Positions 32,191 to 34,593 of a stretch of DNA of 37,239 nt are shown piece after piece (within the stretch, counting starts at the first letter, position 1; the number at the start of each line of letters is the position of its first letter). The notes beneath the pieces were generated by a model, which ran no database searches, had not been told where the DNA came from, and saw only the letters and a list, made by a program, of their open reading frames with translations. Made by a program: the position numbers and the translations under genes. The stretch lies in assembly GCA_024276735.1 (NCBI GenBank), contig JAJRWQ010000005.1:1-37239 (forward strand), in the 5' to 3' direction. The stretch comes from Actinomycetes bacterium. GTDB taxonomy: Bacteria > Actinomycetota > Thermoleophilia > BMS3ABIN01.

Positions 32191-32206
32191 TGTGACCCAG
32201 CTCACA
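32191..32206 (+). promoter_or_regulatory. CRP/FNR-family operator upstream of the DUF1858 gene
   Basis: TGTGA-CCCAGC-TCACA, full match to the CRP half-sites. Confidence 0.75.
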
Positions 32207-32318
32207 TCGCTGCTTGCGCTGGGTCATCGGCGGCCGGCGCCGCCGGGGGTATGCTTTACATGAAATCGAAGAAACCGCCGGGTGATCCCGGCAAGGCATG
32301 AAACGGAAGGAGGCGGCG

Positions 32319-32537
32319 ATGAACGAGACCAGCGAGACCATCGTCACCGGCGAGAGCCTGATAGGTGACGTCATCGAGAACATCCCCGGCGCGGCGGAAG
32401 TGATCGAGAAGTACTTCGGCGACGGCTGCTTCACCTGCCCGGGGATCAGGGTGGAGTCACTCAGTTTCGGCGCCACCATGCACGGTATCGACGCCAACGA
32501 GATAGTCGCCGAACTCAACGAACTGGCGCAGAGTTAG
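32319..32537 (+). CDS. DUF1858 / hybrid-cluster-associated redox-disulfide domain protein
   Basis: MNETSETIVTGESLIGDVIENIPGAAEVIEKYFGDGCFTCPGIRVESLSFGATMHGIDANEIVAELNEL; CxxC; SD ggaaggagg. Confidence 0.85.
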   Translation: MNETSETIVTGESLIGDVIENIPGAAEVIEKYFGDGCFTCPGIRVESLSFGATMHGIDANEIVAELNELAQS

Positions 32538-32566
32538 CAAGCAGCGGCAGCGCCGGTTCGAGCGCG

Positions 32567-32594
32567 CCGCGGCCGGGCCCCGGCCCGGCCGCGG
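32567..32594. repeat. Perfect GC-rich inverted repeat (13-bp arms, 2-nt spacer)
   Basis: ccgcggccgggcc-cc-ggcccggccgcgg, 29 bp downstream of the DUF1858 stop. Confidence 0.9.
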
Positions 32595-32873
32595 GCGGCG
32601 GCAACAGCCTGACCGACCCCCCATTTCCTGGTTTTCACTCTCCCGGCCCCCCGGCCGGTTTCTCCCGGTTGGCGCCCGGCGCCCCGGGATCCCCGCAGTA
32701 CTGCTCCGGCATGCTTGCTCAACGCTTGGCCATGCAGCAACGCGTGGAGCCCTGGCTTGGCTTCCCGCCGGCGACGGCCGGCCGGTGCCGGCGGGCTCCA
32801 GCGCAGCGGTCGCGCGGTGGCAGTGATTCGGCGCCGGCGCAGCAGGGTCCGGCTGCCAGGGAGGAAAAGGGAC

Positions 32874-32899
32874 GGGCGCCAGGCAGCTGCCTGGCGCCC
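32874..32899 (-). terminator. Perfect 26-bp palindrome, probable terminator of the minus-strand oxidase-like gene
   Basis: gggcgccaggcag|ctgcctggcgccc; on the minus strand it follows the stop (32913) and precedes gtcccttttcc. Confidence 0.7.
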
Positions 32900-32912
32900 G
32901 CCGGGGCAAGTG

Positions 32913-33398
32913 TCAGCCCTGATCCTTCGGCTTCGGCGGTGTCTTTGCCGCTGCCTTGGCCCGCGGCGGCACCACGGGCGCCGGCGCCGGGCCGCTCATG
33001 GTCTTCAGCAGGTTGTAGGCGAAGATGAGGGCGCCGGCGGCGAACACCACGCCAAAGGGCGCCACGCCGTAGCGGAAGAGGTCGGCGTCGGTGTAGGCTC
33101 CCACCAGCAGCGCGCCCACGATTCCCACCAGGCCCACCAGGTTGACCCACACCTGGGCGGAAGCCAGGCTCTCGCTGTAGAGCGGCTTGCCGCTGAAGCG
33201 GGGCAGGATGTGGTAGCCCACGCCGAAGATCAGCATCGACATGAAACCCAGCAGGTTGACGTGCGCGTGGGCGGAGGTCACCATCGAGGGGTTCTGCGCC
33301 CCCCTGAAGACGCCCGCCGCCATCAGCACGCCCAGGATCACCCCCACCACCAGGGAGAAAAGACTGATCCTGATGAAGGCAATCACGGAATCACTCAT
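32913..33398 (-). CDS. Short four-TM heme-copper-oxidase subunit I-like (CcoN/NorB-like) protein
   Basis: TSAHAHVNLLGFMSMLIFGVGYHILPRFSG; four predicted TM helices; 161 aa; SD aaaggagc. Confidence 0.75.
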   Translation of the reverse strand: MSDSVIAFIRISLFSLVVGVILGVLMAAGVFRGAQNPSMVTSAHAHVNLLGFMSMLIFGVGYHILPRFSGKPLYSESLASAQVWVNLVGLVGIVGALLVGAYTDADLFRYGVAPFGVVFAAGALIFAYNLLKTMSGPAPAPVVPPRAKAAAKTPPKPKDQG

Positions 33399-33466
33399 CT
33401 GCCGGCTCCTTTCCTTTCGCTTGCGGTCCCAGGCGGCGCCACCGCGCCCGGGGTTCTCTTCCGCGC

Positions 33467-33505
33467 GCGGCCGCCGGCCGCCGCCGGGCGGCGGCCGGCG
33501 GCCGC
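33467..33505. repeat. Perfect 19-bp inverted repeat with 1-nt centre in the intergenic spacer
   Basis: gcggccgccggccgccgcc-g-ggcggcggccggcggccgc. Confidence 0.95.
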
Positions 33506-33510
33506 AACCA

Positions 33511-33657
33511 TCAGTGAGCCCCGTGGATCAGCATGGGCAGGCAGTGAACGCATACCCAGGTTTCCGACCCGTTCTTGAGGCACGAGAGCAGTACCTTTTG
33601 ATCGCTGCCGGCTCCGCACTCGATACACTTGGCATCCTGGTTCTCCTGGTCTGACAT
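33511..33657 (-). CDS. 48-aa CxxC/CxxC (putative zinc-binding) small protein
   Basis: MSDQENQDAKCIECGAGSDQKVLLSCLKNGSETWVCVHCLPMLIHGAH; SD aaaggag upstream of ATG on the minus strand. Confidence 0.78.
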   Translation of the reverse strand: MSDQENQDAKCIECGAGSDQKVLLSCLKNGSETWVCVHCLPMLIHGAH

Positions 33658-33790
33658 CTCGCTCCTTTCTCTTGTCGCTACCCCCGCCTCCCGCGCGGTG
33701 TCGCACCGGCGACGGGTGGTACGCACGTAACCCTTACTGGCAATGATAACCGCTAGGATGCTGCCCGCCGATGCCGCTGGTCAAACACCG

Positions 33791-33808
33791 TTGTGAGCTG
33801 AATCACAA
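33791..33808 (-). promoter_or_regulatory. CRP/FNR-family operator upstream of the minus-strand CxxC peptide gene
   Basis: TTGTGA-gctgaa-TCACAA perfect palindromic half-sites. Confidence 0.78.
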
Positions 33809-33900
33809 GGTTTTTCCCGGTACGGATCGCCGCCACCGGCGAAAACACCGGCACGGCTCCCGCCCGCGTGAGCCCTTGCCGCCGCACCCGGCCGCCGGCG

Positions 33901-34593
33901 TCAGTGGGCCCAGGACCGGAGGCGTTCGCGGTCGAGGATGGTCACCAGGCGGCGGTCGATACGGATGATGCCGGCCCGCTCCAGCTTCTTCAGCTCGCGG
34001 GTCACCGTTTCCCGCGAGGTTCCCACCACCTCGGCGATCTCCTGGCGGGACATGGAAAGGTCCACCTCCACGGTGCCGTCGGCGGTCTCACTGCCGCTCT
34101 CGCGCGCCAGCTTCAGCAGCAGCCCCGCCAGCCGGTGGGGCGCCTGCTTGAAGGAGAGGTCGCGCACCAGTTCCATGGCCTGCCGCAGCCGCTGGCCCAG
34201 CACCTTGATCACCTTGAGGGCGATCTCGGGGTGTCGCCGCAGCAGCTGGCGGAAGTCGTTGCTGGGGATGAGGTAGATCTCCGCGTCGTCCACGGTGGTG
34301 GCGCCGGCGGGGTAGGGCCCGCCGTCGAAGACGGGGACGTCGCCGAATATCTGTCCTTCGCCGAGGATCGCCAGCACCTGCTCGCGGCCGTCGCGGGACA
34401 TCTTGTATATCTTCATCCGCCCCCGCTTCACCAGGTAGAAGGCCGCCGCCGGGTAGTTCTCGTGAAAGATGGCGGTGTTGCGCTTGAGCTGGCGTTCGAT
34501 CACCAGGGGAGCCAGCTGCTTCAGCTCCTCGTCGTCGAGCCCGGAGAATATGGGGGTGCTCGCTAGGTACCGGATTTTCTCCGCCTGGGTCAC
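33901..34593 (-). CDS. Crp/Fnr-family transcriptional regulator
   Basis: cNMP-binding-like N-terminal domain (IFSGLDDEELKQLAPLV...GRMKIYKMSRDGREQVLAILGEGQIFGDV); HTH MSRQEIAEVVGTSRETVTRELKKLERAGII; no N-terminal Cys cluster. Confidence 0.93.
   Translation of the reverse strand: MTQAEKIRYLASTPIFSGLDDEELKQLAPLVIERQLKRNTAIFHENYPAAAFYLVKRGRMKIYKMSRDGREQVLAILGEGQIFGDVPVFDGGPYPAGATTVDDAEIYLIPSNDFRQLLRRHPEIALKVIKVLGQRLRQAMELVRDLSFKQAPHRLAGLLLKLARESGSETADGTVEVDLSMSRQEIAEVVGTSRETVTRELKKLERAGIIRIDRRLVTILDRERLRSWAH

Follow-up and report, generated by a model that had tools for sequence, protein, structure and literature searches.

Do the two palindromic boxes that lie within 2.4 kb of a crp/fnr-type gene in an actinomycete genome belong to a small local regulon, and if so, which signal does this regulon answer? 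The window analyzed here is a stretch of 37,239 nucleotides, in which a motif search located the exact pattern TGTGA-N6-TCACA at 32191-32206 (TGTGACCCAGCTCACA) and 33792-33807 (TGTGAGCTGAATCACA), the latter embedded in an 18-bp palindrome (33791-33808). These two matches compare with none in 100 dinucleotide shuffles of the window, and the whole genome (1.61 Mb, 120 contigs) contains only these two exact copies and no copy of a reversed control pattern. Thus, the boxes reported in the initial annotation are present and are the sole exact ones in the genome; its descriptions of the regulator, the CxxC peptide, the COX1-like protein (hereafter the mini-oxidase) and the DUF1858 protein likewise agree with our profile searches and coordinates (Table 1). 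When one mismatch was allowed, six further matches appeared, eight in total versus five for the control, which is near background; boxes of this kind elsewhere in the source genome were therefore rejected as regulon members. Since the box at 33.8 kb sits between the stop codon of the regulator gene and the CxxC gene, it would serve the CxxC/mini-oxidase operon rather than the regulator's own promoter, and autoregulation was rejected because the exact box is absent upstream of the regulator gene.

Table 1. Features of the locus (positions in the window; promoter elements and their centers relative to the start are predicted).
Feature	Position	Strand	Basis or remark
Operator box 1, DUF1858 gene	32191-32206	+	TGTGACCCAGCTCACA; predicted center -63.5; conserved in orthologs
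Degenerate operator box 2, DUF1858 gene	32213-32228	+	CTTGCGCTGGGTCATC; predicted center -41.5
Predicted -10 hexamer TATGCT, DUF1858 gene	32250-32255	+	59 nt from box 1 start
DUF1858 protein, 72 aa, GCFTCPG; hybrid-cluster-protein-associated redox disulfide type	32319-32537	+	PF08984
Terminator-like hairpin, 14 pairs, T-rich tail, directly after the mini-oxidase gene	32871-32902	-	Strong hairpin
COX1-like mini-oxidase protein, 161 aa, four helices	32913-33398	-	COX1 E=8.4e-12; fold matches part of cbb3 CcoN
Double-CxxC peptide, 48 aa (CIEC ... WVCVHCLPMLIHGAH)	33511-33657	-	Kept in 13 family loci; adjoins the mini-oxidase in other phyla
Predicted -10 hexamer TATCAT, CxxC/mini-oxidase operon	33743-33748	-	59 nt from box 1 start
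Degenerate operator box 2, CxxC/mini-oxidase operon	33770-33785	-	TTTGACCAGCGGCATC; 22 bp downstream of box 1; predicted center -41.5
Operator box 1, CxxC/mini-oxidase operon	33792-33807	-	TGTGATTCAGCTCACA on the - strand; predicted center -63.5; conserved in orthologs
Crp/Fnr-family regulator gene, 230 aa, helix SRETVTR, no Cys	33901-34593	-	PF00027, PF13545

The regulator combines a cNMP-like sensor domain (PF00027, E=1.5e-24) with a Crp-type winged HTH (PF13545, E=9.1e-22), both well over cut-off, and its AF2 model (pLDDT 89.9) and PDB matches fit the Crp/Fnr superfamily; in a profile search it was the sole PF13545 match over cut-off in the genome. Its recognition helix has the R-E-x3-R arrangement that had been pointed out before, and the CRP-like DNA reading attributed to this helix agrees with the published R180/E181 rule (PMC1274295). 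The cysteine cluster that would hold a [4Fe-4S] center in FNR had been described as missing from the N-terminus; in fact, cysteine is absent from the entire protein, and the orthologs contain zero or one. Moreover, alignment with GlxR revealed that the cAMP-contact residues of the phosphate-binding cassette are not kept (FGDVPVFDGGPYPAG in the regulator versus FGELSIFDPGPRTSS in GlxR), the GlxR stretch FGE...GPRTSS being replaced by FGD...GPYPAG. Hence, lacking both cysteines and cAMP-contact residues, the regulator belongs neither to the FNR nor to the CRP type. A catabolite regulon of the cAMP-CRP kind, sharing its box by chance, would nevertheless account for some of these features, as mycobacterial CRP and GlxR are the closest solved structures (about 32% identical, same fold) and the box is identical to the CRP site of E. 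coli. Given the altered cassette, the redox nature of the target genes, the tiny local regulon and a search that found no class III cyclase (PF00211) in this 89.6% complete genome, we consider such a regulon very improbable.

Public relatives of the source genome's group carry the labels Thermoleophilia, Gaiellales or Actinomycetes MAGs. Most genomes of this family encode the regulator (64-72% identity) and the mini-oxidase; whenever the two share a contig they are neighbors with the CxxC gene between them, and the mini-oxidase is also missing wherever the regulator is missing, a point weakened by physical linkage and MAG gaps. All loci examined have the box, with no more than two mismatches, 102-224 nt upstream of the CxxC start; it also precedes the DUF1858 gene in all of them except L083, in which this gene lies directly 3' of the mini-oxidase gene on the same strand and thus might do without its own promoter. 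DUF1858 genes distant from the regulator keep the box, both in G001 (about 9 kb away) and in G003 (on another contig), while seven DUF1858 paralogs differ from it by at least three mismatches; together, these observations make a good case for regulation in trans. The initial annotation had staked its proposal on conserved boxes in orthologous intergenic regions and on the co-occurrence of the regulator with its neighbors in related genomes; the family promoters bear out the former, and the latter holds in the family as well as in other phyla.

The family promoters also disclose how the boxes may work. When 30 of them were aligned by anchoring on box 1, a second, weaker palindrome, TTGA-N6-TCA, was found at +22 in all but one, whereas other offsets yielded 0-2 chance matches, and the best -10 hexamer fell at +59 from the box 1 start in 24 promoters. 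Taking the -10 element to start at -12 places the center of box 2 at -41.5 and that of box 1 at -63.5, a geometry predicted to represent a class II activator site assisted by a second site upstream. Matches to the tandem pattern GTGA-N6-TCAC-N8-TTGA number 15 in 25 genomes, compared with none for the reversed control, and 12 of the 15 are found at the promoters of the CxxC/mini-oxidase operon, the DUF1858 gene or a zinc-ribbon-like gene. This arrangement, in which a weaker box follows 22 bp downstream and the -10 element is fixed, goes beyond the initial annotation and is new to this analysis. Outside the family, where 39 promoters remained after duplicate removal, a -10 hexamer is positioned 36-38 nt from the box start in 34 (shuffle mean 2.5, maximum 7), which again puts the box at -41.5. 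At both module promoters no ordinary -35/-10 pair was recognized. Activator-dependent promoters usually lack a recognizable pair of this kind, which speaks against the regulator being a repressor, or an activator of one unit and a repressor of the other. Crp/Fnr proteins can indeed repress, and box 2, as it overlaps the -35 region, would suit polymerase exclusion; however, the fixed -10 spacing fits class II activator geometry in three bacterial groups, and we regard repression as improbable. In one relative, G007 (locus L091), the full tandem operator precedes a DUF1858 gene, and neither the regulator nor the mini-oxidase was detected there; an assembly gap, recent loss or another regulator are the options.

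The targets themselves are small proteins. The DUF1858 protein scores 41.2 bits against PF08984 (E=1.8e-10, cut-off 32.2) and 44.5 bits against TIGR03980, just below the cut-off of 44.95; its profile score and CxxC place it among the DUF1858/TIGR03980 redox disulfide proteins, and all aligned orthologs contain the GCFTCPG motif. The CxxC peptide matched no Pfam or NCBIfam family. A third target emerged from the relatives, in four of which the same tandem operator precedes a gene for a Cys-rich, zinc-ribbon-like protein of 92-94 aa, encoded upstream of a phosphoglucosamine-mutase-like gene. The source genome carries this gene on contig C16, where a degenerate box (GTTGACCGATGTCACA) precedes it and the -10 is again at +59; it is probably a further member of the regulon, unlinked to the regulator. 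Hence, of the self-contained regulon proposed earlier, the regulator with its local operators and targets stands, but full self-containment does not, as one target appears to lie elsewhere, with a tandem operator in relatives and a degenerate one here. In Chloroflexota, domains related to the zinc-ribbon-like protein are encoded close to the module, in one case (L150:3918-4691) as a fusion with a hemerythrin domain. Another set of boxes was rejected: an invariant TGTGA-N6-TCACA palindrome (approximately 1501-1516 in L003, L005, L006, L007, L008, L009 and L011) stands within a conserved leader, some 30-50 nt ahead of a gene for a multiheme cytochrome c, too close for a -10 to fit at the expected spacing. 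The same leader box occurs in G007, where the regulator was undetected, and this was also counted against membership. Its placement would suit repression or an RNA hairpin; an Rfam search of the leader gave no match, and the stem exhibits little co-variation.

Concerning the mini-oxidase, H44, H46, Y62, H63, R67 and N129 are invariant in 40 sequences, so that its invariant histidines comprise only the HxH and one further His. The profile matches cbb3 CcoN at the HxH heme-ligand helix and, weakly, at two other internal repeats. The protein is modeled with confidence (pLDDT 89.8) as a bundle of four helices, which aligns structurally with part of CcoN (best Foldseek E 0.008; TM 0.66-0.72, normalized to the query length). 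A complete heme-copper oxidase subunit I comprises twelve helices, two hemes and CuB ligands, whereas this 161-aa protein has four main helices and is devoid of partner subunits. As modeled, the mini-oxidase corresponds to a single four-helix unit of the heme-copper oxidase fold, which would bind heme but cannot alone act as a normal oxidase. Through it, the relationship of heme-copper oxidases to a smaller unit of four helices could be explored; the literature searched contained nothing specific on a four-helix oxidase ancestor. Two mini-oxidase genes occur in tandem at L171:6016-6950, and L193 contains a possible fused or split pair; both bear on how multi-unit oxidase-like proteins form. 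More speculatively, the protein could be a free-standing unit akin to the block repeated threefold in subunit I, forming a heme-binding oligomer and, with the CxxC peptide and the DUF1858 protein, a complex dedicated to NO/redox defense, whose operators co-evolved with several Crp/Fnr lineages across phyla; we think it unlikely that this whole picture is correct.

The same gene set recurs far beyond the family. Scanning for the mini-oxidase yielded 193 relatives, and the 80 loci retained come from Deltaproteobacteria, Nitrospirota, Chloroflexota, Brocadia and others. In most of these loci the mini-oxidase is flanked by CxxC-peptide and/or DUF1858 genes, and a Crp/Fnr gene is present in many. 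In Nitrospirota, TATGA-N6-TCATA (at most one mismatch) precedes targets in 43 of 62 upstream regions and TGTGA in only 2, whereas in Deltaproteobacteria-type loci the box, where found, is TTTGA-like. The recognition helices differ as well, V-E-x3-R in the former and S-E-x3-R in the latter, giving the pairs R-E with TGTGA, V-E with TATGA and S-E with TTTGA. Residue 180 of the Crp/Fnr helix is known to read base 3 of the half-site, and the pairing across groups follows this rule (PMC1274295). Such co-variation, seen in three groups at loci where a regulator is adjacent or close by, argues against the boxes being bound by another, undetected Crp/Fnr protein while the neighboring regulator has other targets, as does the lack of a second Crp-type HTH over cut-off in the genome. 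The incompleteness of the genome (89.6%) and the operator of G007 with its undetected regulator would leave some room for that explanation, which nevertheless appears very doubtful to us, and we hold the wiring of operators, regulator and targets with high confidence. No operator was recognized at the Chloroflexota loci, where the helix of the regulators is of the R-D type. It reads VRDVVGR in L150, L157 and L165, and a ferredoxin-like frame lies between the regulator and the CxxC gene in L150 and L165. The module regulators of different phyla fall in separate lineages in a quick tree with moderate support and long branches, in which their monophyly was not recovered; as far as this tree goes, the gene set seems to have been put under Crp/Fnr control repeatedly.

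We propose that a dimer of the local Crp/Fnr activator would bind the strong TGTGA-N6-TCACA box near -63.5 and the weak copy near -41.5, two helical turns (22 bp) closer to the start, and would thereby switch on two units, the CxxC peptide with the mini-oxidase, and DUF1858. The sensor would be neither an Fe-S cluster, as the protein has no Cys, nor a cAMP site, as the contact residues are replaced and no class III cyclase was found. The input would most likely be nitric oxide or a related nitrosative or redox signal, and heme might serve to sense it, as it does in DNR and P. gingivalis HcpR. Thiol or Fe-S centers would then be repaired or shielded by the DUF1858, CxxC and zinc-ribbon proteins, and the mini-oxidase would bind heme in the membrane. 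The evidence favoring NO or nitrosative stress is indirect: YgbA_NO (PF11756) type genes no more than a few genes away from the module at six loci (L154:7060-7443, L157, L182, L209, L211 and L216), the hemerythrin domain, an NnrR-controlled DUF1858 gene (PMC6710368) and the identical box of HcpR1 (PMC5701242). As the YgbA and hemerythrin neighbors belong to other phyla, the regulators of which do not form one clade with that of the source genome, the signal need not be shared. Possibly, the same regulon with the same geometry answers oxygen or the general respiratory redox state instead, its products adjusting respiration or protecting Fe-S proteins from O2. The hcp gene is missing from the source genome, and in Deltaproteobacteria-type loci the mini-oxidase is found near COX1, UbiA-type prenyltransferase, NifU and Mrp/NUBPL genes, surroundings that relate to respiration or Fe-S assembly; however, the regulator has no Fe-S ligands, and the YgbA_NO and hemerythrin partners as well as NnrR control of a DUF1858 gene point to NO. 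We therefore see oxygen as a minor, though real, possibility, and judge the account of a small local Crp/Fnr activator regulon, including its NO/nitrosative signal, to have somewhat better than an even chance of being right.

On the comparisons made here, the module is best described as a real, conserved variant of Crp/Fnr stress regulons, with a gene set that is widespread and little described. No description of this set was found in the literature searched, which lay outside most subscription journals and hence does not prove novelty. The module, known from uncultured subsurface lineages, offers a testable regulon with exact operators and predicted starts for four small protein families on whose function almost nothing has been published. 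Moreover, the Crp/Fnr specificity rule is extended by the parallel change of helix and operator, of which the Nitrospirota pair of V-E helix and TATGA boxes is one instance.

Among known systems, NnrR and DNR are NO-responsive Crp/Fnr activators, and DNR is one of the closer solved structures. In B. diazoefficiens a DUF1858 gene lies next to nnrR, which controls it, with a change of -29.2 in the nnrR-mutant profile (PMC6710368); however, the NnrR/DNR box is of the TTG-N8-CAA type (TTGAT-N4-ATCAA), and the targets are the denitrification genes nir and nor. Closer in DNA recognition is HcpR1 of Desulfovibrio, a Crp/Fnr protein with an R-E-x3-R helix (PMC1274295) that binds the same TGTGA-N6-TCACA box, is NO-induced and is proposed to act at two sites (PMC5701242); by its R180/E181-type helix and its box, our regulator is of the HcpR1 type. 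HcpR also resembles it in the NO response and in the two-site (class 3) activation proposed at nap (PMC1274295, PMC5701242, PMC12750200). HcpR differs, however, in controlling hcp and frdX: hcp (TIGR01703) was not found in the source genome and exceeded the cut-off in only 1 of 10 same-family genomes searched, which disfavors a plain HcpR label, and the targets here are instead the CxxC peptide, the mini-oxidase, DUF1858 and, probably, the zinc-ribbon protein. The regulator is only 19% identical to the solved P. gingivalis HcpR, whose key heme-contact residue is Met68; M65 of the window regulator (KIYKM stretch), at most a tentative counterpart of Met68, is not kept in orthologs. Thus, the regulator shares with HcpR1 the helix and the box, and differs from it in the genes that these appear to control.
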